Shown in pieces: positions 36,170 through 55,679 of a DNA stretch of 64,000 bases (positions are counted from its first letter, which is position 1; each line of letters starts with the position of its first letter). This stretch comes from Streptomyces sp. NBC_00448 (lineage in GTDB: Bacteria > Actinomycetota > Actinomycetes > Streptomycetales > Streptomycetaceae). The stretch covers positions 434,001-498,000 of the forward strand of contig NZ_CP107913.1 in assembly GCF_036014115.1 (NCBI RefSeq), given 5' to 3'. A program made the position numbers and the translations under genes. The notes under the pieces were generated by a model. It ran no database searches. It worked only from the letters and a program-made list of their open reading frames with translations, and was not told the DNA's origin.

Positions 36170-36622
36170 TCAGCGGTTGGGGCGCAGGGTCCAGATGACG
36201 GTCATCCGGCCGGTCTCGGCGCCGTCCTCGCGGGTGAGCACGACCTCGACCGGGAACTCGGGGCGCTGTCCGGCGTCGAGTTCGGCGACGACCTCGGCGG
36301 CGGGCCGGCCGAGCGTGGCGGTCGCGCGCACCTCGCCCCGGGCGATCTTGGCGTAGGTGACCTCGACCCGCACCGGGAGCGGGACGGCGCGGCCGAGTTG
36401 GTCGCCGAACGCGCCGATCACGACGGCGCCGGACGCGGACTCGCCGACGGTGAACATCGCGCCCGCGTGCGGCCCGCCGACGTGGTTGCGGTAGTCGGGG
36501 TGGTCGGGCAGCGACACGACGGCGCGCTCGGCCGTGGTCTCGATGTACCGGAGGTCCAGGGTGCGGACCATCGGCACGGTGGACGTGAGGAGTTCGCCTA
36601 TGTTGGGCAACGTGTCGGACAT
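36170..36622 (-). CDS. Hot-dog thioesterase-like protein (DUF4442/PaaI-like)
   Basis: 150 residues of one hot-dog fold: HPDYRNHVGGPHAGAMFTVGESASGAV holds the usual HxGA-type active-site loop and helix, followed by VEVTYAKIARGEVRATATLG. Probable acyl-CoA thioesterase. TAACAT on the coding strand (36629-36634) ends 6 nt before the ATG, so the mRNA is probably leaderless. Confidence 0.88.
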   Translation of the reverse strand: MSDTLPNIGELLTSTVPMVRTLDLRYIETTAERAVVSLPDHPDYRNHVGGPHAGAMFTVGESASGAVVIGAFGDQLGRAVPLPVRVEVTYAKIARGEVRATATLGRPAAEVVAELDAGQRPEFPVEVVLTREDGAETGRMTVIWTLRPNR

Positions 36623-36680
36623 GGACCGATGTTACCAGCCAGTATCGCGGTCCGCCGTGGAACCCGCGGGCCCGCTCCCC

Positions 36681-36686
36681 TAGTGT
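36681..36686 (+). promoter_or_regulatory. -10 hexamer TAGTGT, probable leaderless start
   Basis: Ends 8 nt before the ATG at 36695, with no ribosome site between. Confidence 0.45.
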
Positions 36687-36694
36687 TTCCAGCC

Positions 36695-37903
36695 ATGTGG
36701 CCAGGAGACCAGCAGCACGGGGGACAGCAGTACCCGCAGGGCAACCCCCCTCAGAATCCGCAGCAACCGCAGCCCTCCCAGGGACCGTACGGGCAACCGC
36801 CCAACCCGTACGCGCAGCCCGGGTACCAGCAGCCGGGTTACCAGCAGCCCCAGCAACCTCCGCAGCAGCCCTCCCAGCAACCCCCGCAGCCCGGCTACCA
36901 GCAGCCGCCGCCGACCCCGCCGTACGGTCAGCCCGCACCCCCGAACCCGTATGCGCAGCCCGGCTACCCGCAGCCCCAGCAGCCCGGACAGCCGCCCGCC
37001 GGCGGCTACCCGACTCCGCAGGCGTGGGGCCCGGGCGGGCCCGGCGCCCCCGGAGGCCCGGGCGGGCCCGGCGGGCAGCCGCCGGAGAAGGACAACCGGA
37101 AGCTGACCATAGGCATCGCCATCACCGCCTCGCTCGCGGTCATCGCTGCCGTGACGGTCGGCGCCGTCTACCTCACCGGCAAGCACGACAAGAAGGACGA
37201 CGCGAAGGGGCCCGCCACGCCCACCGCGACGACGCCGGCGAAGCCCACCGCCACCCCCAGCCCCTCCGACAGCGCGACCGACGGCACCGACGACGACAAC
37301 CCGCGCAACGGCGGCGCCGAGGTGAAACCGGTCATCCCCGGCTGGAAGGTGGTCCGCCGCGACCAGCGCAACGTCGCCTTCGACGTGCCGCCGGACTGGA
37401 AGGTCGACACCCAGGGCATGAGCCTGATCTTCACCGACGACAAGGGTGCCGCGCAGGAGGCGATGGGGGCGCCCGCCCACTACAAGTACGACTGGTGCAC
37501 GTCGGGCCACGACAGCGCCGACCGCGCGACCGTCGGCACCAAGGGCGGCAACGGTGCGAAGAGCCTGAAGAACGCCGCCGACAACGAGGCCGAGGCGTGG
37601 GCGTACTGGGTCTACCAGACCAAGGGCAAGGGCACCTTCTCCAAGGCGAAGGACAGCAAGGCGTTCAAGAACGACCACGGCATCACCGGCTGGCAGTCCG
37701 AGGCCACGGCCACCAACGTGGTCAAGGCCGACAAGTGCACGCCGCCCAGCGGCATCGCCTACACCGTCGCCTGGCTGGACCCCTCCCAGAAGACCCCGAC
37801 ACCGGTGGTGTGGGTGCTCTACGCCGACACCGGCGTCCCCGACCAGCTCTCGCAGTCCATCGTGGACAAGATCAAGAGCACCATCCGCCCGCTGAAGCAG
37901 TAG
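36695..37903 (+). CDS. Single-pass membrane protein with Pro/Gln-rich cytoplasmic region
   Basis: 402 residues. Residues 1-130 are Pro/Gln/Gly/Tyr-rich with repeated YQQP, QPGY and NPYAQPGYP units. One membrane helix follows (about 137-158: LTIGIAITASLAVIAAVTVG), then a Thr/Pro/Ser linker (about 165-200) and an extracellular domain (about 205-402: KPVIPGWKVVRRDQRNVAF, FTDDKGAAQEAMGAP). The domain is of a type common in actinomycete surface proteins and has no known activity. Type II orientation is likely. ATG 36695 lies 8 nt after TAGTGT. Confidence 0.85.
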   Translation: MWPGDQQHGGQQYPQGNPPQNPQQPQPSQGPYGQPPNPYAQPGYQQPGYQQPQQPPQQPSQQPPQPGYQQPPPTPPYGQPAPPNPYAQPGYPQPQQPGQPPAGGYPTPQAWGPGGPGAPGGPGGPGGQPPEKDNRKLTIGIAITASLAVIAAVTVGAVYLTGKHDKKDDAKGPATPTATTPAKPTATPSPSDSATDGTDDDNPRNGGAEVKPVIPGWKVVRRDQRNVAFDVPPDWKVDTQGMSLIFTDDKGAAQEAMGAPAHYKYDWCTSGHDSADRATVGTKGGNGAKSLKNAADNEAEAWAYWVYQTKGKGTFSKAKDSKAFKNDHGITGWQSEATATNVVKADKCTPPSGIAYTVAWLDPSQKTPTPVVWVLYADTGVPDQLSQSIVDKIKSTIRPLKQ

Positions 37904-38085
37904 AAGCAGGAGAAGACGGAGGAGACGGAAGCAGGCGAGACCGGCCCGGCGCGGCAGCGGCGGGGCGGAGTGGCACCAGGGCGGCGGGGCGGCGGCGGCA
38001 CGGCCTGCGGGGTGGGCGCGGCACGGGAGCGCCCGCCGGCGATAACCGCTGGCGCGCCACCCGGGCGTTCCTGGATAGTGCCCGG

Positions 38086-39486
38086 GTGAAGCGCACCGGC
38101 CCCCGCCCCCGCCCCGGCACTCCCCGTGCCCTGCTCGGCAGGCTGCCGGCACTCCCCCAACCGCCCTCCTGGGCCGGCCGGGACTTCCGGCTGCTGGTCG
38201 GCGCGTCGTTCATCGCCAACCTCGGCAACTCCGGCGCCACCATCGCCGCCGCCTACGCGGTCATCGTGCAGGGCGGCAGCGCCACCGACGTCGGCCTGGT
38301 GATCGCCGCCCGCACGCTGGCCCTGGTCGTCTTCCTGCTGGTCGGCGGCGCCATCGCGGACCGGCTGCCCCGGCACCGGGTGATGGTCAGCGCGAACCTG
38401 GTCAACGCCACCTCCCAGGCCGCGTTCGCGGTGCTGGTGCTCACCGGGTCTCCGTCGCTGTGGATGATGGCCGCGCTGGCCGCCGTGGGCGGCACCGGAC
38501 AGGCGTTCTTCTCGCCCGCTTCCGAGGGCATGCTCCTGTCCACGGTGGACCCCGGGCACGCGGGCAAGGCGTTCTCGGTCTTCCGGCTGTCGATGAACGG
38601 CGCGAGCATCGGCGGCGCGGCCCTCGGCGGCGCGCTGGTGGCGGCGGTCGGCCCGGGCTGGGTGCTCGCCGTCGATGCCACCGGCTTCGCGATCGCCGCG
38701 GCCATGCGCGCGAAGCTGCGCACCCCCGTGGTGGAACGGCCCGCCGAGTCCGGCGGGATCGTCCGTGAACTGCGCGAGGGCTGGCACGAGTTCGCCTCCC
38801 GCCCGTGGCTGTGGGGCATCGTGCTCCAGTTCGGGGTCGTCAACGGCTTGGAAACCGCCTCCGAGTCGGTCTACGGTCCGCTGGTCGCCCGCGAGCACCT
38901 CGGCGGCGCCGGACCCTGGGGACTCGCGATCGCCGCGGGTGGTGTCGGCACGGTCTGCGGCGGCGTGCTGATGATCCGCTGGCGCCCGCGCCGGATGCTG
39001 CTCGCCGGCACCCTCGGCGTCTTCCCGCTGGCGCTGCCCGCCGCCGCCCTCGCGATCGCCGCACCGCTCCCGCTGCTGTCGGCCGCCACCTTCACCGCCG
39101 GTCTCGCGGTGGAGGTCTTCGCGGTCGGCTGGATGCTGGCCCTGCACCAGGAGATCCCCGAGGACAAGATGTCGCGCGTGTCGGCCTACGACTGGCTCGG
39201 CTCGGTCTCCCTGACCCCCGTCGCCACCGCGCTCGCCGGCCCGGCCGCGATCACCTTCGGCCGGACCCAGTCGCTGTGGGGCTCCGCCGCGCTGATCGTG
39301 CTGCTCACCGGCGCGGTCCTGCTGCTGCCGGACGTACGGCGGCTGGAACGGCGTACGAAGGTCACGTCGGCACCGGTCGACCACCCCGTCGACGACCTGC
39401 CCGCAGCCGAGCCGCTTCCGTTCCCGCTTCCGGCCGGCGCCAAGCCCGTCGCGGAGAGCGTGGACGGGCTCCCCGACGCGACCTGA
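38086..39486 (+). CDS. MFS transporter (enterobactin-exporter-like group)
   Basis: 466 residues with about 12 membrane helices (about 30-430). Motif A-like GGAIADRLPRHRVMV follows helix 2. A charged C-terminal tail of about 40 residues ends the protein. Probable drug or siderophore exporter by family. I chose GTG 38086 (VKRTGPRPRPG); it follows GATAGT by about 7 nt, so it may also be leaderless. Not linked to a biosynthetic cluster here. Confidence 0.9.
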   Translation: MKRTGPRPRPGTPRALLGRLPALPQPPSWAGRDFRLLVGASFIANLGNSGATIAAAYAVIVQGGSATDVGLVIAARTLALVVFLLVGGAIADRLPRHRVMVSANLVNATSQAAFAVLVLTGSPSLWMMAALAAVGGTGQAFFSPASEGMLLSTVDPGHAGKAFSVFRLSMNGASIGGAALGGALVAAVGPGWVLAVDATGFAIAAAMRAKLRTPVVERPAESGGIVRELREGWHEFASRPWLWGIVLQFGVVNGLETASESVYGPLVAREHLGGAGPWGLAIAAGGVGTVCGGVLMIRWRPRRMLLAGTLGVFPLALPAAALAIAAPLPLLSAATFTAGLAVEVFAVGWMLALHQEIPEDKMSRVSAYDWLGSVSLTPVATALAGPAAITFGRTQSLWGSAALIVLLTGAVLLLPDVRRLERRTKVTSAPVDHPVDDLPAAEPLPFPLPAGAKPVAESVDGLPDAT

Positions 39487-39578
39487 TCCGTCCACGACAC
39501 CACCGCACACCGCGCCGTGCGGCCCTGCCGCCCCCGCCACCCCCGAGCCGGCCTTCGCGGGCGGAACACGCTCCCGGG

Positions 39579-40433
39579 TCAGCCGATCGTGAAGGCGCCG
39601 CCGGGCGGCTCGGGCGAGTCGGCCGCCTCCGCGTCGTGCACCGGCGCGCCCGGAAACGCCCGTACCGCCTCCTCCGTCCCCAACACCCGTGCCGGGAACG
39701 GGTCCGCGGCGCACCGCCGTGCGACCACGTCCGCCGGCAGCGGGCCGCGGGCGACCGCGAGCACCGCGTTGCCGTACCGGCGCCCGCGCAGCACCCCCGG
39801 CTCCACCAGCACGCACACCTCCGTGTCCGGGCCGAACGCCGCGCGTACGGTGGCCAGTTGCGAGCCGAGGAAGGCGAACGGCGCGGCGTCGGCGAGGTTC
39901 GCCACGTACAGGCCGCCCGGGCGCAGCACCCGTGCCGCCTCCGTCGCGCACTCGACCGTGGTCAGGTGCGCGGGGACCCGCGACCCGCCGAACACGTCCA
40001 CCACCAGCACGTCGGCGCTCGCGTCCGCCCGCCCGGCCAGCCACTCCCGGGCGTCCGCGACATGGGTACGGACCTCCGGCGCGTCCCACGGCAGGTACTC
40101 CGCGACCAGCCCGGCAAGGCCGCGGTCCGCCTCCACCACGTCCTGCACCGCCCCCGGCACGGTCCGCGCGAACCTGCGCGGCAGGGTCAGCGCCCCACCG
40201 CCGAGGTGCACGATCCCCACCGGCGCCTCCCGCGTGTCGCACACCGCCTCCACGACATACGCGACACGCCGTACGTACTCGAACTCCAGGTGCTCCGGGT
40301 CCGCCAGATCGACGTACGACTGTGGCGCGCCGTCCACCGTCAGCAGCCACGCCCGCGCGCGGTCCACATCCGGCAGCAGCTTCGCCTCCCCGAAGTCCAC
40401 GGCCCGCAGCACCGGAATCGCTTCACCTTCCAC
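39579..40433 (-). CDS. Spermidine-synthase-like methyltransferase-fold protein
   Basis: 284 residues. SAM-binding core GIVHLGGGALTLPRRFA and VEADRGLAGLVAEYL; VLVVDVFGGSRVP and LRPGGLYVANLADAAPF complete the Rossmann fold. It resembles fused-type SpeE homologues of actinomycetes, many of which are not true polyamine synthases, so activity is uncertain. GTG 40433 is favoured by AGAGG 8 nt upstream. Downstream of tuf3 on the same strand but separated by a strong hairpin. Confidence 0.85.
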   Translation of the reverse strand: MEGEAIPVLRAVDFGEAKLLPDVDRARAWLLTVDGAPQSYVDLADPEHLEFEYVRRVAYVVEAVCDTREAPVGIVHLGGGALTLPRRFARTVPGAVQDVVEADRGLAGLVAEYLPWDAPEVRTHVADAREWLAGRADASADVLVVDVFGGSRVPAHLTTVECATEAARVLRPGGLYVANLADAAPFAFLGSQLATVRAAFGPDTEVCVLVEPGVLRGRRYGNAVLAVARGPLPADVVARRCAADPFPARVLGTEEAVRAFPGAPVHDAEAADSPEPPGGAFTIG

Positions 40434-40511
40434 CGGCCCATCCTCTCCCACCCCCGGGGCCCGCGGGGACGCGGGGAACCGCGCGGCAGCCCCCGCCGAC
40501 CGGACAGGGCA

Positions 40512-40549
40512 GGACGGGGCCGGGCGGGCGGACCCGCCCGGCCCCGTCC
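40512..40549 (-). terminator. tuf3 terminator, 17-bp perfect stem
   Basis: GGACGGGGCCGGGCGGG pairs fully with its complement around a 4-nt loop (TCCG on the minus strand), 10 nt after the tuf3 stop. Confidence 0.75.
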
Positions 40550-40558
40550 GGGGACCGG

Positions 40559-41737
<1,179 letters not shown>

Positions 41738-41828
41738 GGGAAGACTCTTCCTCGACGGTCGCCGCGTGCCACGCGGTGACCGGAAGGGGGAAGGCGGTGA
41801 GCCGCCTCACGGACCCCGGGCCGTACCG

Positions 41829-41874
41829 ACCCTCCCCCTGCGGGGTCCGCCGGATACGTCGTACCGGGGAGGGT
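41829..41874 (-). promoter_or_regulatory. Inverted repeat in the tuf3 leader (ACCCTCCCC / GGGGAGGGT)
   Basis: Nine-bp arms lie 28 bp apart, about 90 nt upstream of the tuf3 start. On the minus strand a small CCCC-GCA-GGGG hairpin inside uses the same GGGG, so two exclusive foldings are possible. The rest of the 581-bp tuf3/MFS divergent gap (41738-42318) holds no gene I can support. Confidence 0.4.
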
Positions 41875-42152
41875 CAGCTTCGTGCGCCGTCGAATGCGCC
41901 GTCGAGGAGTGCCGGCCGTGCGGCGGCCGCGGCCTGTGCGACCGCTGCGACCGATGCGTTCCGGGCAGCCTCCAGCGCGACCGCTGCTGCGGTGGCGTCT
42001 GCGAGGAAGGCGGGCCGGAACATGCGACGATCATGCGCCGCGGGACCGCCGTCCGTCGAACGGTTTTCCGCCCCGCGCCCGCCTGTTGGGCCGCCCGTCC
42101 CGGCGCCGCCGCCTCAGTCTCCTCCCACCTGCGTGAACCGCCGGGTGACGCA

Positions 42153-42166
42153 ACCGTCAACGGTTC
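42153..42166. promoter_or_regulatory. Perfect palindrome AACCGTCAACGGTT
   Basis: Six-bp arms around CA, 153 bp before the MFS gene start. A candidate operator for the exporter gene; no regulator is adjacent. Confidence 0.4.
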
Positions 42167-42318
42167 TTCATCCGCTGGTGACGTACGGGAATTCGCAGCG
42201 TGGGACACTTTGTTCCGTTGATGAACTTAACCTGCGTCTCCCCGCCCCACCCGTCCCCGCCCCGTCCTGCCCACCCCGTCCTGCCCCACCCCGTTCCGCT
42301 CCCGTAAAGGACCCCTCC

Positions 42319-43533
42319 ATGCCCCTGGCCATCCTCGCCCTCGCGGTGAGCGCCTTCGGCATCGGCACCACGGAGTTCGTGATGATGGGCCTGCTGCCCA
42401 ACGTCGCGGGCGACCTCGGTACCTCCGTGCCCACCGCCGGCTACCTCGTCTCCGCCTACGCGCTCGGCGTCGTCGTCGGCGCCCCGCTGCTCACCGCGCT
42501 CGGCTCCCGTATCCCGCGCAAGCGCATGCTGCTCCTGCTGATGGGGCTGTTCACCGTCGGCAACCTCGCCTCCGCCGTCGCGCCGGGCTACTGGACGCTG
42601 CTCGGCGGCCGGTTCCTCGCCGGGCTGCCGCACGGCGCGTTCTTCGGGGTCGGCGCGGTCGTCGCCTCGCGGATGGTCGCCGAGGAGCGCCGGGCCCGCG
42701 CGGTGGCCGCGATGTTCCTCGGGCTGACCGTCGCCAACATCGTCGGCGTGCCCGCCGCGACCGCGCTCGGCCAGCACCTCGGCTGGCGCGCGACCTTCGT
42801 CGTGGTCTCCGCCATCGGCCTCGTCGGGCTCGCCTCGCTCGCGCTGCTGGTCCCGCGGCTGCCCGCCGAGGAGCACGTCGGCGTGGGCCAGGAGATCCGG
42901 GCGCTGCGCGAACCCCAGGTCGTACTCGGCCTGCTCACCGCGGTGTTCGGGTTCGCCGGGGTGTTCGCCGTCTACAGCTACCTCGCCTCGATGATGACCG
43001 AGGTCACCGGGTTCGCCGACTCCTCGGTCACCCTCCTGCTCGCGCTGTTCGGCATCGGCATGACGCTGGGCGCCCTCGCCGCCGGCCCGCTCACCGACCG
43101 CGCGCTGCGCCCCACCCTCTACGGTTCGCTCGCCGCCCTCGCCGTCGTCCTGGTCGGCTTCCACTTCGCGGCCCACTCCAAGGTCGCCGCGCCGATCGCG
43201 GTCGTCGTCCTCGGCGCGGTCGGCTTCATGACCACCACGCCGCTGCAGATGCTGGTCATGAACAAGGCCCGGCACGCCCCGACCATCGCCTCCGCCTCCA
43301 ACCACTCCGCGTTCAACCTCGCGAACGCCGGCGGCGCCTGGCTCGGCGGCGTGGCCATCTCGGCCGGCTGGGGCTGGACGTCGCCCACCCTGGTCGGCGC
43401 CGTCCTCGCGGTGGCCGGGCTCGGTATCGCCGTGACCGCGGGTCTGCTCGACCGCCGTGCGGAGGTGACGGCGTCGGAGGTGATCGCGGAAGGGGGGCCG
43501 CGGGCGCTGCGGGAGGTGGAGGAGCCGGCCTGA
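42319..43533 (+). CDS. MFS exporter (AraJ/CmlR-like, DHA1)
   Basis: 404 residues with 12 membrane helices. N-terminus MPLAILALAVSAFGIGTTEFVMMGLLPNVA and motif A-like GSRIPRKRMLLLLM match the AraJ/YdhP/chloramphenicol-exporter group. ATG 42319 has AAAGGA 7 nt upstream. Family members export chloramphenicol, sugars or purine analogues. Divergent from tuf3 with a 581-bp spacer that holds a palindrome near this gene. Confidence 0.92.
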   Translation: MPLAILALAVSAFGIGTTEFVMMGLLPNVAGDLGTSVPTAGYLVSAYALGVVVGAPLLTALGSRIPRKRMLLLLMGLFTVGNLASAVAPGYWTLLGGRFLAGLPHGAFFGVGAVVASRMVAEERRARAVAAMFLGLTVANIVGVPAATALGQHLGWRATFVVVSAIGLVGLASLALLVPRLPAEEHVGVGQEIRALREPQVVLGLLTAVFGFAGVFAVYSYLASMMTEVTGFADSSVTLLLALFGIGMTLGALAAGPLTDRALRPTLYGSLAALAVVLVGFHFAAHSKVAAPIAVVVLGAVGFMTTTPLQMLVMNKARHAPTIASASNHSAFNLANAGGAWLGGVAISAGWGWTSPTLVGAVLAVAGLGIAVTAGLLDRRAEVTASEVIAEGGPRALREVEEPA

Positions 43534-43572
43534 CCCGGCACTCCGGGGGCAATGGCCGGCCCCCACCTCGGT

Positions 43573-43578
43573 TAGGCT
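43573..43578 (+). promoter_or_regulatory. -10 hexamer TAGGCT, probable leaderless start
   Basis: Ends 6 nt before the ATG at 43585; no ribosome site between. Confidence 0.45.
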
Positions 43579-43584
43579 CGGCAA

Positions 43585-44541
43585 ATGGCAGAAGCCGAGC
43601 CGGACTTCACGCCCGCGCCCTCCGGACCAGATGTCCGCGACGCCCGCGAGGCCCGCGACGCCCGCGATGTGCGGGGTGGGCGGGGTGTACGGGGTGTACG
43701 GAGAGCCGCGGCGCGGGCCGTGGTGCGCTGCTCGCGGCTGATGCTCTCGCCCTGGGCGCGGTTCGGCGTGCTGGTCGCGGTGCTGGCCGTCGGGATCGCG
43801 CTGGCCGTCGCGTGGCAGCCGCAGCGGCTGCTGACCAGGGGCTGGCCACCCCAGACCTCGGGCACTTCCGCGGTGCTGGTCTTCGCGCTGGCCTACGGTG
43901 TCGCCACGGTCGTCTTCGTCCCGCGCCCTTTGCTCAACGCCGCCGCCGGCGCGCTCTACGGCATCCACGCCGGGCTGCCCGCGGCGATCGGCGGCACCGT
44001 GCTCGGCGCCGGACTGGCCTTCCTGCTCGGCCGTTTCCTCGGGCGCGACGCCGTACGGCCGTTGCTGCGCGGGCGGTTCGTGCTGTCGCTGGACCGCCAG
44101 CTCAGCAAGCACGGTTTCCGGAGCACTCTCGCGCTGCGGCTCTTCCCGGGCGTGCCGTTCGCCGCCGCGAACTACGCGGCGGCGCTGTCCCGTATCCGCC
44201 TGACGCCCTTCCTGACCGCCACCGCCGCGGGCAGCGCCGCCAACACCGCCGCGTACGTGATCGCGGGCGCCCGGGCCGCGTCGCCCACCTCGCCGACGTT
44301 CCTGCTCGCGCTCGGGTTCCTCGGGGTGACCGGGGTGGCGGCGACGGCCTACGCCCGGCGCCGTACCCGCAGGACGGCGACCGGCCCCGGTGCGGCGGTC
44401 GTACGCGCCGAAGGCGGCGGGGCCGACGTACCTCTCGCGCCCGATACGGCCGGTGTGACCAGTACGACCGGTACGACCGGCACGCCCTCCGCCGTCAACG
44501 ACCCAGCGGGTTCGGCCACTCCGCCAGCGGAATCCGCTTGA
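43585..44541 (+). CDS. TVP38/TMEM64-family membrane protein
   Basis: 318 residues. Residues 1-45 are an Asp/Ala/Arg-rich cytoplasmic head. The VTT domain (about 55-245) has FVPRPLLNAAAGALYGIHAGLPAAIGGTVLGAGLAFLLGR and ALRLFPGVPFAAANYAAALSRI. The C-terminal tail is Thr/Gly-rich. The family is related to DedA scramblases. Its 3' end overlaps the convergent flavin reductase gene by 47 bp. Confidence 0.88.
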   Translation: MAEAEPDFTPAPSGPDVRDAREARDARDVRGGRGVRGVRRAAARAVVRCSRLMLSPWARFGVLVAVLAVGIALAVAWQPQRLLTRGWPPQTSGTSAVLVFALAYGVATVVFVPRPLLNAAAGALYGIHAGLPAAIGGTVLGAGLAFLLGRFLGRDAVRPLLRGRFVLSLDRQLSKHGFRSTLALRLFPGVPFAAANYAAALSRIRLTPFLTATAAGSAANTAAYVIAGARAASPTSPTFLLALGFLGVTGVAATAYARRRTRRTATGPGAAVVRAEGGGADVPLAPDTAGVTSTTGTTGTPSAVNDPAGSATPPAESA

Positions 44542-45112
44542 TCTCCAGTACCTCGCCGAGCGTGCCCCACTCGTCCTTCCCCAGCCGCGTCAACGGCCGC
44601 AGCGCGTGGACGTCCGGCAGCCCGTCCACCATCACGGCCTCCGACACCACCGCGTACACCACCCGCCCGAACACCACGGTCGAGTCCCCCAGCCGGAGCG
44701 TGCTGTGCAGCTCGCACTCCAGCGCCACCGGCGACGCCGCCACCCGCGGCGGCTTCACCCGCGCGCTGGGCTCCCGGGCGATCCCCACCGCGTCGAACTC
44801 GCTCACCCCGTGCGGAAAGTCCGTCGCCGTCGCGTTGATCTGCTCGAACAGGTGCTCCGGCGCCAGGTTCACCACGAACTGCCCGGTCTCCTCCACATTC
44901 CGCACCGAGTCCTTCCGCCCCACCGACGTGAACTGCACGATCGGCGGGCTCACACACGACACCGTGAAGAAGCTGTGCGGTGCGAGGTTGTCAGAAACCC
45001 CGTCTCGGTCGGTCGTCGACACCCACGCGATCGGCCGGGGCACGACCACCGAGGTCAGAAGCCGGTAGAACGCGTTGCGGTCCTGCTGGGCGGGATCGAA
45101 GTCGATACGCAT
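44495..45112 (-). CDS. Flavin reductase-like FMN-binding protein
   Basis: 205 residues, flavin-reductase-like split barrel. Seen: VVVPRPIAWVSTTDRDGVSDNLAPHSFFTVSCVSPPIV with the FMN loop, ETGQFVVNLAPE, and SPVALECELHSTLRLGDSTVVFGRVV. It may reduce FMN or FAD for a monooxygenase, none of which is adjacent. ATG 45112 lies 6 nt after GATACT on the coding strand (AGTATC 45119-45124), suggesting a leaderless mRNA. Confidence 0.9.
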   Translation of the reverse strand: MRIDFDPAQQDRNAFYRLLTSVVVPRPIAWVSTTDRDGVSDNLAPHSFFTVSCVSPPIVQFTSVGRKDSVRNVEETGQFVVNLAPEHLFEQINATATDFPHGVSEFDAVGIAREPSARVKPPRVAASPVALECELHSTLRLGDSTVVFGRVVYAVVSEAVMVDGLPDVHALRPLTRLGKDEWGTLGEVLEIKRIPLAEWPNPLGR

Positions 45113-45230
45113 GGGCCCAGTATCCACGCGCCCACCTCCGCCCCCACCAGGGGATCGCGGCCTGACCAAACCTGTGCTTCTCCGGAAGGTGCCCGGTATC
45201 GGACGACCGACGCACCGAAAGCCGAGCCCC

Positions 45231-45776
45231 ATGTCCACGACCACCCCGTCCCCGTGGGACGACCTCACCATCCCCCCGCACGCCCGCAAGCGGGGCATCA
45301 CCCTCAACCTCTACGACCAGCTCTCCGCCTACGTGCCCCAACGTCCCGGCGCCTACCTGCGGATCTCCAGCGACCGTTTCGGCCTGGAAGCCGGCGTGGA
45401 ACGCCAGAACGACGACGCCGAAGACACCCGCGCCCGACTCGGCTGGGCCCCGTTCGCGAAGGTCTACCTGATCGACAACGTCGCCTACGGTCTGGAGCTC
45501 GCCGGACGCGGTAAGAAGGAGCGGCTGCGCATCGCGGCCGACCTACTCGCGCTGACCGGGCTCAAGGGTTTCGAGGGCTTCTACCCCGATCAGCTCTCCG
45601 CCGGCATGAAGCAACGGTTCATCATCGCGCGCGCCCTGGCCGCGGACCCCGACATCCTGCTCCTGGACAAACCGTTCTCCGGTCTCGACGGGCAGACACG
45701 CGAGAGCATGCGGGCCGAACGGCTCAAGATCTGGGAGGTCGTGCGGGCCCGGAAGGCTCCTGGCGACGAGCAGTGA
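45231..45776 (+). pseudogene. Chimeric ORF: serine-recombinase N-terminus joined to ABC-ATPase fragment
   Basis: 181 residues from two unrelated families. Residues 1-73 match the start of a large serine recombinase (PGAYLRISSDRFGLEAGVERQ, including the presumed nucleophile Ser, then DTRARLGW). From about 74 on it is the second half of a NitT/TauT- or ProV-type ABC ATPase (NVAYGLELAGRGKKER, signature LSAGMKQRFIIARAL, Walker B ILLLDKPFSGLD). Walker A and Q-loop are absent, the Walker B catalytic Glu is Lys, LSGGM is LSAGM, and it stops before the H-loop. It cannot work as an ATPase or recombinase as it stands. Probably a recombination scar, though the frame is open throughout and no internal stop is seen. 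Confidence 0.75.
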
Positions 45777-45785
45777 CCTGAGCCG

Positions 45786-45830
45786 GTCGGCTGCTTCCCC
45801 TCCTCGCGCAGACGAAGGGAAGCAGCCGAC
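45786..45830. terminator. Hairpin with 14-bp perfect stem between convergent genes
   Basis: GTCGGCTGCTTCCC pairs with GGGAAGCAGCCGAC around a 17-nt loop. It separates the chimeric ORF from the 3' end of the large minus-strand cluster and probably ends that cluster's transcript. Confidence 0.75.
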
Positions 45831-45862
45831 GGGCTTCTACCGCGGGTTGTCACGGCACGAGG

Positions 45863-47935
45863 TCACCTGCCGCCGCGGCCCCCGCTGCCGCCCTGGCCGC
45901 CGGACCGGCCGCCGCTTTGACCCTGGCCTCCGCTCTGGCCCTGACCGCCGGACTGGCCCTGGCCGCCACTCTGCCCGCCGGACTGGCCCTGGCCGCCGCC
46001 GGTGAGAACGGCCTGCGGGAGGTACAGCGGCATCGAGTCCTCCCACTGGCTGTCGGTCAGCATCGTCTTGCCGGAGCCGTCGGCGTTCATGACCATGACC
46101 ATGCCGTACGGCTGGAAGGTGTTGTCGTACAGCGCGGCCTCCTCCCGGAAGCCGTACATCCCGGTGTTGTAGAGGATGCGTCCGTCCGGGTTCCAGACCG
46201 CGTGGCCGTCGTTCGCGCCGCTGCTGGTCAGGACGGTCAGGCCGGTGCCGTCGGGCTTGATGGTGCAGACGTCGAAGTTGGTCGGCGCGGTCTTGCGGGT
46301 GAACAGGATGAGGCTGTCGTCCGGGGACCAGTCGGGCAGGTTGTCGGACTCGGTGGTGAGGACGGTGGTCGTCATGGTGGTGAGGTCGAGGACGCGCAGG
46401 CCGTTCTGCGCGCCCCACACCCGGTAGACGAGCTTGGTCCCGTCGGCCGAGTAGCTCGGGAAGCCGGAGTTGGTGGAGTTGTCGGTGAGCGCCTGCGCGC
46501 CGGTGCCGTCGCTGCGGACCCGCCAGATCGCGGCCGTCATGACGGCGCGCTCCTGGAACCAGCCGCCCAGGCCGAACGCGAGCCACTCGCCGTCCGGCGA
46601 CCAGGTCGGCCGGAACGCGCCGGCCAGGCCCTCGGCGACCAGCGTCTGGTCCAGGCCCGAGGTGGTGGTGTCGAAGACCACCTTCTGGTCGGTGCCGTCC
46701 GGGTTCATGGTGACGACATCGGACATGGCCGCGCCGAGTTGCTTCTGGGTGATCGCCAACTTGCCCTGGAGCGACAGGGCCGGGAAGACGTCGCAGAAGC
46801 GGTAGTCCCAGTCCGCGTCCCAGCTGTAGAGGGTCTCGTCGAGGGGTCGGACGGTGAAGTCCTGCTTCTCGTAGATCACCGACTTCCCGTCCGGTGACCA
46901 GCACGGTGAACGTACCCCGGCGCGGGTGAGGTTGGGGATCGAGCCATTGACGTAGACCAGGCCCTCGTCCGCGCCGTTCTTGAGCAGGTAGCCGATCTCG
47001 GTGTTGGTGACGTACTGCGGCGAGACCTTCAGGTTGGCGCCGGAGGTGTGCTCGACGCGGTCGGTGCCGGTGGCGAGGTCGACCGAGACGATCTGCGACT
47101 CGGCGATCCCGATGTCCTCCGGGCGGTGAGCGTCCCAGGTGTTCTGCACCGTCATCTCGTAGTAGACGATCCGCTGCCCGTCCGGGGACCACTTGGGCGA
47201 GCCGAGGCAGTAGCCGGGCTTGGTCGCCAGCTGCCGGAACCCGGTGCCGTCGGGCTTGATGACATAGATGCTCAGTTCCTGGGTGTGCTCCCAGCCGGTG
47301 CCGTTGTCGTGGCCCATCCACTGCGTGTTGCGGTCGCTGGAGAACGCGATCCACTGGCCGTCGGGCGACCAGACCGGGCGGAAGTGGCCGTCGGGGCTGC
47401 TGGGGTCGCCGGCCAGCGCCGCGGTGCCGCTGAGGTTGGTGAGCGCGCCGGTCTTGGTGTCCATCAACCAGATCTGCGACAGGTGGTCCGCGGAGCGGGT
47501 GGAGGAGAAGGCCAGGGTCCGCTTGTCCGGGGACAGGGTGGCGCTGTCGTACACCGCGGGGCCACCGATCACGGAGGTGACACCGACGCCTTGGCCCGAG
47601 CCGTTCAGGCTCGCGGAGTAGATGTTCGCGTTGCCGTCCCCGGACCGCTCCGAGGTGAAGTAGATCGTCTTGCCGTCGGGCGAGTAGTTGGCGTGCCGGT
47701 CGAACGCCGCGTCGGTGCCCGACAGCAGCTGGCGCTCGTTCGACCCGTCGGCGTTCGCGATGTACAGGGTCGACTTCGACGGCGCGATGCGGTTCATCAG
47801 CATCACACCCTTCTTGCCGCTACTGGCTGCCGCCACGGCGAAGGACGGCTTGGGCAGCAGCACGGCGCCGGCGGTGGCCGCGCTCGCGGCCAGGAACGCG
47901 CGACGCCCTATACCCTTTTTCTCGGATGATCCCAT
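45863..47935 (-). CDS. Tat-exported TolB-like beta-propeller (PD40 repeats)
   Basis: 690 residues. N-terminal Tat signal KGIGRRAFLAASAATAGAV with cleavage near residue 33. The body is a series of PD40/TolB blades (WSPDGQWIAFSSDR, LSPDKRTLAFSSTRSADH, WSPDDSLILFTRK), enough for one or two propellers. The last 45 residues are a Gly/Gln/Ser tail of repeated GGQGQS units. No catalytic motif is seen, so it is probably a secreted binding or enzyme protein. Last gene of the minus-strand cluster; the 514-bp gap upstream gives it a chance of its own promoter. Confidence 0.88.
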   Translation of the reverse strand: MGSSEKKGIGRRAFLAASAATAGAVLLPKPSFAVAAASSGKKGVMLMNRIAPSKSTLYIANADGSNERQLLSGTDAAFDRHANYSPDGKTIYFTSERSGDGNANIYSASLNGSGQGVGVTSVIGGPAVYDSATLSPDKRTLAFSSTRSADHLSQIWLMDTKTGALTNLSGTAALAGDPSSPDGHFRPVWSPDGQWIAFSSDRNTQWMGHDNGTGWEHTQELSIYVIKPDGTGFRQLATKPGYCLGSPKWSPDGQRIVYYEMTVQNTWDAHRPEDIGIAESQIVSVDLATGTDRVEHTSGANLKVSPQYVTNTEIGYLLKNGADEGLVYVNGSIPNLTRAGVRSPCWSPDGKSVIYEKQDFTVRPLDETLYSWDADWDYRFCDVFPALSLQGKLAITQKQLGAAMSDVVTMNPDGTDQKVVFDTTTSGLDQTLVAEGLAGAFRPTWSPDGEWLAFGLGGWFQERAVMTAAIWRVRSDGTGAQALTDNSTNSGFPSYSADGTKLVYRVWGAQNGLRVLDLTTMTTTVLTTESDNLPDWSPDDSLILFTRKTAPTNFDVCTIKPDGTGLTVLTSSGANDGHAVWNPDGRILYNTGMYGFREEAALYDNTFQPYGMVMVMNADGSGKTMLTDSQWEDSMPLYLPQAVLTGGGQGQSGGQSGGQGQSGGQGQSGGQGQSGGRSGGQGGSGGRGGR

Positions 47936-48449
47936 TTCTCTTCCAGCTTCCGTCGATTGAATGATCGGGCTTCACCTTGAGTGGACATGCCGGGGCAAGA
48001 GAGGATCTGCCGAATCCGGCATGACCGCCGGACCATGAGAGACCGCCGGAATACGGGTGGCCCTTTCCCTGGGCCGGCGGCCAACCACTCGCTACCAGAA
48101 CCGGGTTGACCCGTGTTTTCCTGGAGGCCGTGCGGGACGCTACTCCGCACCTGAATCACCGTCAATGAAACGGTCGGATTTATTGCGCCGGGCGAACCAT
48201 CCACAGGTTTTCACACGGACATGCGGAAAACCGCTCGGGACCACTTCGTGAGCGTGATTCGAGCAGGCGGAAGGAAATTACTTTCTTGGTTCAGGAAAGG
48301 CGAATGGCCGACAGGGACGAATGCACCCGAACGTTTCGGCGCCACTCCCTCGCCGGCACCGCAGCTGCAGCGACCGCGGGAACCCCTGCACGGCGGGCGC
48401 GCTTCCGGGGTGCCCGCGCAGTGACGCGCGAGCACCCGGGAAAGCGGTG
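47936..48449. other. 514-bp intergenic region without a supported gene
   Basis: Contains the promoter region of the PD40 gene and is less GC-rich near 48150-48290. On the + strand, 48304 onward could encode RRHSLAGTAAAATAG, which resembles a Tat signal, but it runs antisense into the lactonase gene and is not followed by a domain; at best a relic. Confidence 0.4.
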
Positions 48450-49736
48450 TCAGGGGCGGAAGAAGGTGATGGAGTCCGGGTTGGGCACGGCCAGAGAGGT
48501 GCCGGTGTCCGTGAGCCTCCCGGAGTGCTGGTCGATGCCGAACACGTTGACGGTGCTGCTCGCCTCGTTGGCAACGAGCAGCCACCGCCCGCTCGGATGG
48601 ACCGTGAAGCCCCAGGGCGTGGTGCCTCCGCAGGGGACGCTCTGGAGCGTGCTGAGCAGGTCGGTCCGCGGGGCGACGGCAAAGACCATGAGCGAGTTCT
48701 CGCCCCGGTTGCCGGCGTAGACGAAGCGGCCGTCGGCGCTGATCGCCAGGTCGGAGGCGCTCTTCGCGCCGGTGAAGTCGGGGCCGTCGAGGGCGACTGT
48801 CTGACGTTGCGTCAACTCACCGCTGGCCGGGTTCCACTGGAGGGTCTGGAGGTCCGAGCTGAGTTCGCTCAGCAGGTAGACGGTGCGGCCGTCGGGGTGG
48901 AAGGCGACCCGGCGCGGACCGGAGCCGGCCGCCGTCGCGTAGGCGTACGGGCCGGCCGGGCCGCCCGTGGACAGGGTGCGGGTCTCCCGGTCGAAGCGGT
49001 AGACGAAGACGCGGTCGGCGCCGAAGTCCGCGACCAGGGCGAACCTGCCGCTCGGATCGACCTCCGCGTGGTGCGGATGCGGGCCGGCCTGCCGGGGGTT
49101 GGGGCCGGAGCCGGTGTCCTGCGCGAGCGAGGCGGGCGGGGCCAGCTCGCCGGTCCGGGAGATCGGCACGGCGGCGGTGAAGCCGTCCTCGAAGTTCGTG
49201 GCCAGCAGGGTGTTGGACGGCTGGTCGATGCCGATGTACGACACCCCGCCGCCGTTCAGGCCGGTGCCGCCGGTGGACAGCTCACCGGTCTTCGTCAGGG
49301 CGCCGCTCGCCGGGTCGATCCGGAAGGTGTCGACGACGCCGCCGACCGCCATGGTCGCCACGTACAGGATCGGCAGCGTCGGGTGCGTGACCGCCCAGTC
49401 GGCGTTGGCGTCGCCCACCGGCCCGATCGGCGTCAGGTCGCCGCAGCCGGGGTCGAACCAGGCCCCGTAGATCTGGGTGCCCTTCCAGGTGTTGAAGTAG
49501 ACGAGTTCCCGCGTGGCGCTCCTGGGCGCCGCCGCTCGCCTGGCCGGAGCCGCTGCCGCGGAGGGCATCGCGCCGAGCAGCGGCACAGCCGCGGCGGCAC
49601 TGACGGTGGCCGCCAGCGATCCCAGGACGAAGCGGCGGGAAGGACCTCCGGATCTGCCGGCGACCGGGTCGGCCGGAGTGGGGCGGCCGGAGTGGGGCGT
49701 GGAAACGTCTGTCGAGTCAGGTCTGGAACCAGACAT
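48450..49736 (-). CDS. Tat-exported lactonase-family seven-bladed beta-propeller
   Basis: About 428 residues of the lactonase/3-carboxymuconate-cyclase family (PF10282 type). Tat signal in the N-terminal 70 residues: PSRRFVLGSLAATVSAAAAV. Blades follow (VTHPTLPILYVATM, HPHHAEVDPSGRFALVADFGADRVFVYRFD, FHPDGRTVYLLSELSSDL, WGFTVHPSGRWLLVANEASSTVNVFGID). Family members hydrolyse sugar-acid lactones such as 6-phosphogluconolactone. I chose ATG 49736 because AAGGAG lies 10 nt upstream; ATG 49757 is the alternative. It may process an extracellular lactone for the adjacent importer. Confidence 0.88.
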   Translation of the reverse strand: MSGSRPDSTDVSTPHSGRPTPADPVAGRSGGPSRRFVLGSLAATVSAAAAVPLLGAMPSAAAAPARRAAAPRSATRELVYFNTWKGTQIYGAWFDPGCGDLTPIGPVGDANADWAVTHPTLPILYVATMAVGGVVDTFRIDPASGALTKTGELSTGGTGLNGGGVSYIGIDQPSNTLLATNFEDGFTAAVPISRTGELAPPASLAQDTGSGPNPRQAGPHPHHAEVDPSGRFALVADFGADRVFVYRFDRETRTLSTGGPAGPYAYATAAGSGPRRVAFHPDGRTVYLLSELSSDLQTLQWNPASGELTQRQTVALDGPDFTGAKSASDLAISADGRFVYAGNRGENSLMVFAVAPRTDLLSTLQSVPCGGTTPWGFTVHPSGRWLLVANEASSTVNVFGIDQHSGRLTDTGTSLAVPNPDSITFFRP

Positions 49737-49842
49737 GTCGAGAGTGCTCCTTTGCATCTCGAATGCACGTGAAGGGAATGCTCGGCAGCCCGGGGGCCGC
49801 TGATTGACAGGCGGGAAGTCGTCGTGACAAGGGACCTTGGTG

Positions 49843-50715
49843 TTACGGGCGCGGGCCCGACGCGTGGCGGGTGGCCAGGCCGAGCCGCTTGAGGGCGTAC
49901 TTGTCCAACTGGCCCAGGATGCCGTTGAGGATCAACGTGATCGCCATCAGGACGATCAACCCGGCGAACTCGGTCGCGGCGTCCAGGTTCATCGCGGAGG
50001 TGAACAGCTCGTGGCCCACCCCTTCGGACGAGGCGATGAACTCCCCGCCGATGACGCCGAGGATGGCCAGCGGACCGCCGGTCTTGAGCGCGGCGAAGAA
50101 CGGCGCGGCCAGCGTCGGGACGGTCACGTAGCTGAGCACGTGGTGCTTGCGGCCGCCCATCACCTGAATGATCTCCACGAGTTCGCGCTCCCGCAGCCGC
50201 AGCCCCAAGTAGAGGTTGTAGAAGACCACGAAGGCCACACCGGTGGCGGCGATGTAGATCTTCGACCAGGAGCCGATCCCGAAGAACAGCACGAACAGCG
50301 GGGCCAGCGCGATCTTGGGGACGCCGTTGACGGCCGCGACCAGCGGCTCCATCACCCGCCCGGCGAGCGGGAAGGAGCCCAGCACCAGGCCCATCACGGT
50401 GCCGATCGCCACGCCGATGCCGAACCCGACCACCACCTCGAACGAGGTCGTCTTGATGTCGGTCCACCCCTGCGACGAGCCGAGCAGGTGGTGAAGCGCC
50501 GTCCACACGTCGGTCGGTTTGCTCACCGCGTACTCCGGGATCACCGGACCGCTCATCACCTGCCACAGGATCAGGCAGAGCGCGATCACGGCGAGGCGCA
50601 GCACCACCACCAGGACGGTGCCCCGCCACCGGCCGGCCTCCTTCTTGCCGGTTGCCGCCGGAACCTTCGTCCCGACCTTCTTTTCCGCTATCTCACGGGT
50701 AGCAGTCACCACCAT
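49843..50715 (-). CDS. ABC transporter permease, NitT/TauT (SsuC) type
   Basis: 290 residues with about six membrane helices. The EAA cytoplasmic loop reads AAVNGVPKIALAPLFVLFFGIGSWSKI. N-terminal 30 residues are charged. AAGGAG lies just before ATG/GTG/GTG, so the exact start may be 3-6 nt downstream. It would dimerise and pair with the binding lipoprotein directly upstream and the ATPase at 62364. This family imports sulfonates, taurine, nitrate, pyrimidine precursors, riboflavin or phthalates. Confidence 0.92.
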   Translation of the reverse strand: MVVTATREIAEKKVGTKVPAATGKKEAGRWRGTVLVVVLRLAVIALCLILWQVMSGPVIPEYAVSKPTDVWTALHHLLGSSQGWTDIKTTSFEVVVGFGIGVAIGTVMGLVLGSFPLAGRVMEPLVAAVNGVPKIALAPLFVLFFGIGSWSKIYIAATGVAFVVFYNLYLGLRLRERELVEIIQVMGGRKHHVLSYVTVPTLAAPFFAALKTGGPLAILGVIGGEFIASSEGVGHELFTSAMNLDAATEFAGLIVLMAITLILNGILGQLDKYALKRLGLATRHASGPRP

Positions 50716-50753
50716 CTGCTCCTTCCAGTCTCTTCAGCCGCCAGCGGGCAGTG

Positions 50754-51863
50754 CTACGGCAGGTACTTGTTGGTCCAGTTGTCGGAAGTGACCTTCGCCT
50801 CCTGGGTCAGTGCCCCCAGCGAGTTGACGAACGTCACTGTCTTGGTCCAGTCGGCGGCCGTCATCGTGTCGCTCTTGGGCCACCCGACCTGGGGGAGGCT
50901 GGCCTTGATGACCGCCGCCGGCACGCCGGGCAGCGCCTTCTGTGCCACGGTCTGCACGGTGGCCGAGTCGATGTTGGCGTTCATGTAGGCCGTCGCCTGC
51001 TGCACCGCGGTGGCGAACTTCTTGGCGATGTCGGCGTGCTGGGAGAGGTAGCTGTTACGGCCGACCACGACCTGTCCGTACCCGGCCTCTTGCTCGGACC
51101 AGGCCGTCACCTTGATGGAGTCGGCCACCACGACACCGTCGCCGGTGCCCTGGATGGCCAGCGGAGTCGGCTGCGAGGTGACGAACCAGTCGATCTGGTT
51201 GCTCTTCAAGGCGGCCTTGTCGGCGGCCGGGCTGGGCAGCGACACCCACTTCACCTTGCCGGCGTCGACGCCGTACGCCTTGAGGAAGACGCTCGCCTCG
51301 CCCTTGGTGTTCGCCGAGCTGGAACCGCCGGTCGAGCCGTCCAGGGCCTTGGCGACCTGGGCCGCCGGAGTGTCGGCGGTCAGCCCGTGCGCCTTGGCGA
51401 ACTTGGTGCTGACGATCAGGCCGAGCGGGTTGCCGCCGCCGTCTGCCGCGATCGCGGTCTCCGGGACTTTCTTGCCGATCGCCGACACGAAGTCGGTGGG
51501 GCTGTCGTTGAGGAACTGGATCGAGCCCGATTCCAGCGCGGAAGTTCCGGTGGCGGCGGTCGTGGTGACGTACTTGACCTTCAGCTTCTGCTTGCTGAAG
51601 TAGCCGTTGGCCTCGGCCAGACGGATCGGCATGTCGAAGATGTTGCCCGCGACCCCGACGGTGACCGTGGTGGTCCCGTCGGAGTTCTTGGAGGTACCGC
51701 CGCCTCCGCACGCGGTGAGTGCCACCGCGCAGAGCACCACGGCGCTGCCCGCCGCGACAAACCGGGCGCCGGCCCGGGCCCTGGTGCGCGTGGGCCCCGC
51801 GCTGCCGTGCTCCGCCCGCCCGGTGGTTCTTGCGGTGGGGCTTTCCGCGTCGTGCTGGGTCAT
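50754..51863 (-). CDS. ABC transporter solute-binding lipoprotein (NMT1/SsuA type)
   Basis: 369 residues. A lipoprotein signal with lipobox LTAC at about residue 51 follows a long hydrophilic N-terminus (AAGSAVVLCAVALTACGGGG). The mature part is a type-II binding fold (VGVAGNIFDMPIRLAEANGYF, SGSIQFLNDSPTDFVSAIG) of the NMT1/THI5/SsuA family. ATG 51863 follows AGGAG. It lies 38 nt before the permease gene. Ligand unknown; aromatic carboxylates and sulfonates fit the family. An inverted repeat and an FCD-like operator precede it. Confidence 0.92.
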   Translation of the reverse strand: MTQHDAESPTARTTGRAEHGSAGPTRTRARAGARFVAAGSAVVLCAVALTACGGGGTSKNSDGTTTVTVGVAGNIFDMPIRLAEANGYFSKQKLKVKYVTTTAATGTSALESGSIQFLNDSPTDFVSAIGKKVPETAIAADGGGNPLGLIVSTKFAKAHGLTADTPAAQVAKALDGSTGGSSSANTKGEASVFLKAYGVDAGKVKWVSLPSPAADKAALKSNQIDWFVTSQPTPLAIQGTGDGVVVADSIKVTAWSEQEAGYGQVVVGRNSYLSQHADIAKKFATAVQQATAYMNANIDSATVQTVAQKALPGVPAAVIKASLPQVGWPKSDTMTAADWTKTVTFVNSLGALTQEAKVTSDNWTNKYLP

Positions 51864-51884
51864 GAGATCTCCTGTCACCGTGAT

Positions 51885-51895
51885 TGTCTGACGTG
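51885..51895. promoter_or_regulatory. Near-match to FCD/FadR operator, TTGTCTGACGT
   Basis: Matches TNGTNNNACNA at all but the last position. It lies 22 bp upstream of the binding-protein start and 149 bp downstream of the FCD regulator stop. Confidence 0.4.
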
Positions 51896-51911
51896 GAAGA
51901 AGCGCTTCCAC
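51893..51911. promoter_or_regulatory. Inverted repeat GTGGAAG-N5-CTTCCAC
   Basis: Seven-bp perfect arms, 30 bp before the binding-protein ATG. It overlaps the FCD-like motif by 3 bp. Confidence 0.45.
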
Positions 51912-52043
51912 TACGCGAGTCGGATCGGGTGCGCCACGGGGATCAACCCGGAACGCGTTCCGTCCGACGAGCCCACCGTCGCGTTTCGCTTGACCGCCAT
52001 TGCGCATGATGCTCTTTCGGTTATCGGATAGCTGAACTCGTCG

Positions 52044-52712
52044 CTAGCCGAGGACGAGTGCGTGCCGAGCGGTGGCGACGTGGTGGCGCATCGCTGCGGT
52101 GGCTGCCTCGGGGTTTCGGGTCACGATGCCGAGAAGAATGGTCTGGTGTTCTTCGACCGACCCGGTCCTGGGATGTTGGGCGGAGACATTGCGATATTGG
52201 CGCATCACGAGGGGGTAGAGCAGGGTGTCGTAGGCGCGGGACAGTGTCATCTGATGGGCGGCGGCCTTTACCTGCTGGTGGAATCGGCGATTTCCCTGCG
52301 AATACGCTGCCTGGTCGCCTCGCGCCCGGGCGTCCGTCATTCCCTCCAGGGTGGCCCGCAGTTCGCGGATCTCGTCCTGGGTGGCCCGCTCCGCGGCTTT
52401 TCCGGCCAGCGCGGATTCGAGGGTCTCGCGCGCCTCCAGAATGTCCTTCGCCTCTTCAGGGGAGAAGATCCTGGTGCGAACACCGCGGTTGACCTCGCTG
52501 GTGAGGTATCCCTCCTGCGCCAAGCGGACGAGAACGGCCCGCATGGTCCCTCGCGAGACGTTGCACATCCTGGTCAGGTCGGCTTCGGTCAGTCGCGTGT
52601 TGGGCTCGATGCTGCCTGACAGCAGCAGCGAGCGCAGTTCGTCGTACGCCTGGCTGTACCGGGTCGCGGATGCCCTGGTGTCGTGGGTGATGCCGTTGTC
52701 GCTCTGCACCAT
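52044..52712 (-). CDS. GntR-family regulator, FCD (FadR) type
   Basis: 222 residues. Winged-helix (about 20-85: AYDELRSLLLSGSIEPNTRLTEADLTRMCNVSRGTMRAVLVRLAQEGYL) and an all-helical FCD domain (about 92-218) with metal-ligand positions visible in AYSQGNRRFHQQVKAAAHQ and EEHQTILLGIVTRN (Asp/Asn, His, His). FCD regulators sense carboxylic acids or aromatic acids. It sits inside the cluster, between catabolic enzymes and the ABC importer, and is the likely local controller. Confidence 0.93.
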   Translation of the reverse strand: MVQSDNGITHDTRASATRYSQAYDELRSLLLSGSIEPNTRLTEADLTRMCNVSRGTMRAVLVRLAQEGYLTSEVNRGVRTRIFSPEEAKDILEARETLESALAGKAAERATQDEIRELRATLEGMTDARARGDQAAYSQGNRRFHQQVKAAAHQMTLSRAYDTLLYPLVMRQYRNVSAQHPRTGSVEEHQTILLGIVTRNPEAATAAMRHHVATARHALVLG

Positions 52713-52789
52713 GATCGCCTACGTGTCTAGAAGGGGAGAGGCGCCCGTATCCGGTCCGGTGAGTGGCGGGACGCCCGCGTGCCAGGCGG

Positions 52790-53650
52790 TCAGTCGTGGA
52801 CCACGCCGAGGCCGGGGTAGAGGCGGCGGGCCGTGCCGGCGAAGATGTCGGCCCGTGCCTGTTCTGGCAGGTCGGCCAGCACGGTCTCGGCGAGCTTGCG
52901 AAGTTCGGGCAACGACTGCTCCGCCGCAGGGCAGTTGGAGCCCCAGGCGATCCGGTCTGCGCCGAAGGAGTCGATGACCGGCTGGAGGAAGTCAGCGGCC
53001 TTGTCACCGGCGTCGTGGAGCCGTTCGAGGTTCCGGTGGGTCAGCTTCAGGTGCAGGCCGGGGTTCTTCGCGAGAGCGGCGATCTCCCGGCCGGCCTCCG
53101 CGGGTGAGGAGGCGATATCGGGGTAGCCCATGTGGTCCAGCAGGACGCGCACCCCGGGGAACCGCACCAGCACCGAGATCAGGTGCTTCGTCGCGGGCCC
53201 GTGCCGCATCTGGAGGCAGACGGTGACGCCCAGTTCCTCGGCCGACCGCCAGAAGTCGTACGTCTCCGGTGTCGCGAACCACTGTCCCTGCTCGGGTACG
53301 GTGCTGCCGCTGGTGAACAGCCGGACCCCGGCGAGACCCCCGTCTCCGACCAGGTCCGCCAGGCGCGCGCCGGCCCCGGGCTTGAGCGGGTCGAAGGTGC
53401 CCACGGCGACGAACCGGCCGGGCCACCGCTTGCGGCTGTCCAGGACGTAGGAGTTGTCGTACCCGTAGGCGGTGGTGGCCTGCACCAGGACGGCCTGGCG
53501 TATGCCGGTGTCGTCCATCCGGGAGACCATCTCCTCCGCGGTGACCGGCCTGGAGGCAGCCCACTCGGACTGCTTGCCGCCGATCGGCGCCCGCGGGTAG
53601 ACCGCCAGGTCCTGCGAGATGATGTGACAGTGCGTGTCGACGATATCCAT
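52790..53650 (-). CDS. Amidohydrolase-2 family protein (LigI/PDC-lactonase-like)
   Basis: 286 residues, TIM-barrel amidohydrolase. HxH in DTHCHIISQ (residues 7-9), RQAVLVQATTAYGYDNSYVLD as in pyrone-dicarboxylate lactonase, LQMRHGP, LLDHMGYPD, and a strand-8 motif IAWGSNCP where most relatives have GSDxP (Asn near residue 239). LigI-type enzymes hydrolyse 2-pyrone-4,6-dicarboxylate without metal, so an aromatic-acid lactone is a reasonable substrate; amide or decarboxylase activity is also possible. 77 bp from the regulator gene, same strand. Confidence 0.85.
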   Translation of the reverse strand: MDIVDTHCHIISQDLAVYPRAPIGGKQSEWAASRPVTAEEMVSRMDDTGIRQAVLVQATTAYGYDNSYVLDSRKRWPGRFVAVGTFDPLKPGAGARLADLVGDGGLAGVRLFTSGSTVPEQGQWFATPETYDFWRSAEELGVTVCLQMRHGPATKHLISVLVRFPGVRVLLDHMGYPDIASSPAEAGREIAALAKNPGLHLKLTHRNLERLHDAGDKAADFLQPVIDSFGADRIAWGSNCPAAEQSLPELRKLAETVLADLPEQARADIFAGTARRLYPGLGVVHD

Positions 53651-53731
53651 GTTCGTCCGATTTCCTTCGCCTTGGGATGTGCTGGCAGTCGCGGTACGCG
53701 GCCCCGGGCCGGTGTCCGGGGCGGCGTCGGC

Positions 53732-54742: not shown

Positions 54743-54795
54743 GACCTGCCTTCCAATCGGATAGGTGCGTGCGAACGTGGTGCCGGGGTGCTTCT

Positions 54796-55662: not shown

Positions 55663-55679
55663 CTTCGACTCCTTCTGCT

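Follow-up and report, generated by a model that had tools for sequence, protein, structure and literature searches.

A 181-residue open reading frame (ORF) in the window (the whole stretch of 64,000 nucleotides analysed, positions 434001-498000 of a genome assembled as one contig of 9.65 Mb and 99.97% complete) consists of the remnants of two genes, a large serine recombinase and an ABC ATPase, fused in frame at the edge between two synteny blocks (Table 1). In our reading it is an illegitimate junction of an ordinary kind, specific to one lineage and with decaying remnants of genes on both sides. An accessory catabolic block was very probably linked to the block on its left by an illegitimate join of the end-joining type, which fell in frame and was followed by decay of the resulting orphan ORF.

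Table 1. Features of the fused ORF and its surroundings (window coordinates; relatives are given by genome number)
Feature	Position	Strand	Remarks
Fused ORF, remnants of two genes	45231..45776	+	181 aa, frame open throughout
Large serine recombinase, 5' remnant	45231..45468	+	residues 1-79 and first base of codon 80; longer relatives 537-557 aa
TauB/ProV-type ABC ATPase, 3' remnant	45469..45776	+	lacks its first half and 192 bp internally
Single AGATCTGGGA left by the 192-bp deletion	45727..45736	+	two copies in G012 and G033, exactly 192 bp apart
Junction of the two synteny blocks	45468..45469	.	inside codon 80; no microhomology visible against G027/G015 and G012
Left block	1165..45468	.	colinear, with gaps, to G011 over 1165-45421; shorter stretches with G027, G005, G015 and G028
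Flavin reductase-like gene, divergent neighbour of the recombinase remnant	44498..45112	-	stop codon 44495-44497
Right block, catabolic cluster (NMT1/permease/ATPase transport genes, amidohydrolases)	45469..64000	.	G012 homology continues ~4.4 kb beyond the window
PD40 beta-propeller (TolB-like) gene beside the ATPase remnant	45863..47935	-	same neighbour in G012 and G033

The in-frame fusion had been claimed in an earlier analysis of the letters alone (hereafter the sequence-only reading), and it is real: in alignments the ORF begins where the recombinases of G027 and G011 begin, and ends where the ATPases of G012 and G033 end. The two-part make-up then proposed, a recombinase N-terminus followed by a TauB/ProV-type ATPase, likewise holds; the boundary placed at residue 73 does not, as the recombinase part comprises residues 1-79 and codon 80 (CTG) is a hybrid of both parents. 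The N-terminal part is 69-77% identical to six congeners over 59-79 residues and 82% identical to a seventh over 39 residues, and residues 80-171 are 82% identical to the 296-aa ATPase of G012. In the fused ORF, Pfam recognises just the last part of an ABC ATPase domain (residues 88-149, E 2.8e-8) and none of the Resolvase, Recombinase and zinc-ribbon domains of large serine recombinases; the best NCBIfam matches, TauB (residues 80-169) and ProV (residues 76-168), are both far under the cut-offs. Compared with the recombinase of G015 (537 aa, with the Resolvase, Recombinase and Zn ribbon domains all found by Pfam) and that of Streptomyces angustmyceticus plasmid p1, the ORF is homologous over its first 79 residues and has the same divergent flavin reductase neighbour, but keeps just the first part of the resolvase domain.

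The other portions of the two parent genes were then sought in this genome. The G015 recombinase as query gave a single match, confined to its residues 3-64, and the remaining recombinase portion was not found with it. The first half of the ATPase was not found either: queried with the first 130 residues of the G012 ATPase, the genome gave 129 matches, the best five of which are 37-49% identical, as ATPases in general are. The sole full-length match to the fused ORF in this genome is the ORF itself.

Homology to G027, G007, G005, G015 and G020 ends at 45467-45470 (that to G011 and G028, whose own recombinase stubs are shorter, ends earlier than 45467), and homology to G012 and G033 begins at 45469. 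On the left side (44515-45468) the DNA is 81% identical to G027 and 77-83% identical to G011, G007, G005 and G015; on the right side, from 45469, it is 87% identical to G033 and 83% identical to G012 over 268 bases. The parents compared (G027/G015 against G012) share 0 bp at the joint, in keeping with the little or no microhomology of an illegitimate junction, though they represent diverged species, so that the absence of microhomology is uncertain. The position at the border of the catabolic cluster, to which the sequence-only reading had drawn attention, was confirmed, the junction being the edge between two synteny blocks. It fixes the catabolic block edge to the base in one lineage, and is of use in two ways, marking a rearrangement precisely and drawing attention to a recombinase locus whose breaks differ from one species to another.

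Colinearity of the left block with G011 stops at 45421, 99 bases short of the G011 contig end. The catabolic block measures about 23 kb and begins inside an ABC ATPase gene, its far edge being defined solely as the end of G012 homology. The two relatives found with the block, G012 and G033, were reached via the ATPase match. In G012, the block and the 296-aa ATPase gene lie at C1:7119533-7147039, and the flavin reductase locus at C1:205279-206838 has no recombinase match and no block beside it; the DNA flanking the G012 block sits in the present genome at 8038659-8060942 and 8989306-8991965. In G033, 14 kb of other DNA precedes the block on contig C40, and the flavin reductase belongs to contig C22, which ends 7.7 kb away, with neither recombinase nor block beside it; the DNA upstream of the G033 ATPase (10.2 kb of 14.2 kb examined) maps to several scattered places in the present genome. 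For 518-538 kb of this genome, no single colinear counterpart was found in G012, G033 or G027. A large inversion between the chromosome ends, prompted by the DNA upstream of the G012 ATPase lying at 8.989 Mb here, was rejected as a simple account because the DNA flanking the G012 block on its other side likewise falls at the right end of this genome (8.04-8.06 Mb) in the same orientation. Identity to G012 and G033 is 83-89% for the main matches of the block and 81-92% for the left block; given this similarity, the block would seem more likely to have moved within the group, or to have been exchanged between closely related genomes, than to have been imported from afar.

Compared with the TauB/ProV-type importer ATPase of G012, the fused ORF is without Walker A, Q-loop, H-loop and the catalytic Glu. 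The first three had been listed as missing by the sequence-only reading and are indeed all absent, from different causes. The junction comes after both of what we take to be the Walker A and Q-loop motifs, the residues of which are visible in the G012 protein, and the H-loop was taken out by a separate, exact in-frame deletion of 192 bp between 10-bp direct repeats. The replacement of the Walker B catalytic Glu by Lys, also reported there, was borne out against 28 comparison ATPases, all of which have Glu. Moreover, the first Gly of the LSGG signature is Ala (LSAG) in the fused ORF and Gly in 28/28, and one Val, kept in 27/28, is replaced. Altogether, 3 of 18 conserved columns (those conserved in at least 90% of the 28 related ATPases, of which seven loci are from this genome and from which L001, L038, L039 and L045 were left out) are altered in the fused ORF, against 0/18 each in G012 and G033. 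Residue differences from the G012 ATPase are about equal in the present genome (G000, 13/88) and G033 (12/88), and pairwise dN/dS over the 88 codons of the remnant is 0.25 against G012 and 0.36 against G033, the G012-G033 pair giving 0.32. Signs of relaxed constraint on the remnant are limited to the choice of residues that changed, the dN/dS values being unremarkable. The G033 ATPase (L039 14059-14691), at the same catabolic block edge, is N-truncated elsewhere, its match starting from residue 108 of the G012 protein; the ATPase gene has therefore been cut more than once, and part of its truncation may predate the join.

That neither stop nor frameshift interrupts the fusion, a point stressed in the sequence-only reading, is true yet unsurprising. 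When 181-codon segments were drawn at random from the window, 33% of 20,000 had no stop (real coding frames included), and the proportion is 35% (793/2251) for segments in the non-coding frames of 39 genes, which were called with a simple and possibly fallible GC3 rule. Of 1446 stop-to-stop runs, 186 are at least 181 codons long, and 46 of the 1629 single-base changes of the fused ORF create a stop; two in-frame events would be expected by chance about 1 time in 9. The open frame needs no selection and is weak evidence of function in this window of 73% GC, and the ORF is a clean case of how poorly a long open frame in such DNA supports a gene. That it works as a gene is very unlikely, and we expect that an annotation pipeline might label it, misleadingly, an ABC transporter ATP-binding protein.

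A junction pattern searched with at most 3 mismatches matched 1 of 394 family genomes (a sample from a larger group), namely the present one, and the reversed-pattern control matched none of the 394. Among the matches listed in 35 congeners (the present genome included), none but its own spans both halves above 36-41% identity: the others cover one half each, give or take about ten residues at the joint, and those running well past residue 80 (such as 40-172) are 36-41% identical, as in other ATPase kinds. In a scan of genome contigs, from which near records may be missing, none of four loci had the fusion architecture, all matches lying within residues 72-173. None of 27 matching phage records covers 80% of the fused ORF; 18 of 1177 matching plasmid records do so, and the eight listed carry the annotation ABC ATPase, with matches that begin at residue 26. 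Among the family genomes searched, the present one is the sole carrier of the junction, which speaks against an established family of this architecture. The proposal of the sequence-only reading, that the fusion is a local scar of an event that brought in or trimmed neighbouring DNA, is supported by this rarity and by the border of two synteny blocks.

A recombinase or its remnant is found beside the divergent flavin reductase gene in 10 of the 13 genus genomes compared (own included, out of 35 congeners); in G012 and G033 the flavin reductase stands alone, and G013 has a distant recombinase alone. Numbered on a 557-aa relative, the recombinase match ends at ~38 in G028 (the shortest stub), ~63 in G011 (98 bases from its contig end), ~78 in the present genome, ~104 in G005 (frameshift at 72), ~122 in G007 (start codon changed) and ~208 in G020 (frameshift at 105, flavin reductase match partial). 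The short loci examined in G004 and G032 match 36-296 and 35-269, the latter with one TAG inside; the G027 recombinase has a frameshift at 213, and that of G015 keeps an open frame from 19 up to its end, with a flavin reductase match starting at residue 12. The flanks, followed for up to 12 kb after the flavin reductase, have little in common beyond the recombinase, except one 188-base match between G015 and G027. Across the genus loci (L040-L046, L101, L116, L117; 44498-45230 in the window), most recombinases of the pair carry a cut or a frameshift, at a point that varies between genomes, and are followed by unrelated DNA. We take the recombinase to be a gene decaying in the genus, and its site is possibly prone to breakage. 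Only tentatively, and with more doubt than belief, would we extend this to a recurrent break-and-capture site at which the recombinase is cut variously and joined to unrelated DNA, with the catabolic block as one such capture. Plasmid p1 has an annotated full-length recombinase in this divergent layout (L125 5207-7620; 59% identical to that of G015), and after it come NACHT-domain, DUF5655 and DNA methyltransferase genes (L125 8373-13508), which could, from their annotation, be defence cargo. In G028, a transposase pair with HTH_Tnp_1 and rve domains, presumably IS3-like by its layout, lies ~500 bp from the stub (L101 11987-13263).

The join itself may have been less direct. In a two-step variant of the best explanation, the block would first have lain further downstream, and a later deletion would have removed the recombinase 3' part, the intervening DNA and the ATPase 5' part. 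Such trimming is a sizeable possibility, if somewhat short of even: neither missing half was found in the genome, repeated deletions would give the different truncation points of the recombinase in relatives, and the ATPase is also cut, at another point, in G033. However, the intermediate state is present in none of the genomes compared, and the block and the flavin reductase locus lie far apart in G012 and on different contigs in G033, where each has other DNA beside it. Capture of the block by the recombinase itself, through site-specific recombination, could be suspected from a junction inside a recombinase gene and from the different DNA that follows the stub in relatives; it is nonetheless exceedingly improbable, as the break is within the enzyme's own coding sequence and at other points in other relatives, the joint is without shared bases, and a transposase pair sits beside the shortest stub.

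The fusion might instead encode a functional chimeric protein, in which the recombinase N-terminus and the ATPase fragment have a new role (e.g., dominant-negative or regulatory). The open ORF with its original start and stop, the pairwise dN/dS below 1 and the precedent of deletion-born fusions in a high-GC actinobacterium (PMC7671302, in the part considered) are consistent with this, but the losses and the altered signature in the ATPase part, a resolvase domain reduced to a fragment undetected by Pfam, the restriction of the junction to one genome and the frequency of chance open frames in the window make it highly improbable. An assembly artefact joining two unrelated loci would agree with a junction seen solely in this genome; against it stand the single, nearly complete contig and the missing halves, which were not found elsewhere in the assembly and which a simple mis-join would not explain, and we give it hardly any credence.

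On the preferred reading of an illegitimate join, the left break would have fallen inside the serine recombinase gene, next to that for the flavin reductase, and the right break inside the ABC ATPase gene at the catabolic block edge. End joining, as we infer, would have linked the two blocks, either directly or with later trimming, and landed in frame by chance (1 in 3), with the remainder of each gene gone; the orphan ORF would then have decayed through the deletion between short direct repeats and through replacements at conserved residues. By analogy, the junction would belong to the class of illegitimate-recombination events of Streptomyces chromosome arms, which are described as prone to rearrangement in the parts of two studies considered here (PMC8627663, PMC5124664), the second of which attributes circularisation and end fusions to illegitimate recombination. 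Like the events in those parts, it lies 479 kb from the contig end, with a break in coding DNA, no visible microhomology and an accessory gene block at the border; unlike them, being events in laboratory mutants, it is known from between-species comparison alone. The part considered of a study on Mycobacterium tuberculosis, also a high-GC actinobacterium, reports deletion-born gene fusions, one of them shown at the protein level (PMC7671302). There, as here, two gene parts were joined in frame by structural change; unlike in the fusion shown as protein, the ATPase half here is without catalytic motifs and nothing suggests its use. None of the titles found in a literature search concerns this locus, a statement about those titles and not about all that is in print.

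G012 has two copies of some parts of the catabolic block, namely its binding protein, regulator and beta-propeller regions (L096/L097, C1:7119533-7125683), and in the present genome the binding-protein and regulator regions occur again just beyond the window (L085 404-4384). Within the cluster, a DUF3500 protein (55683-56894, E 7e-90) is encoded near two Amidohydro_2 proteins.
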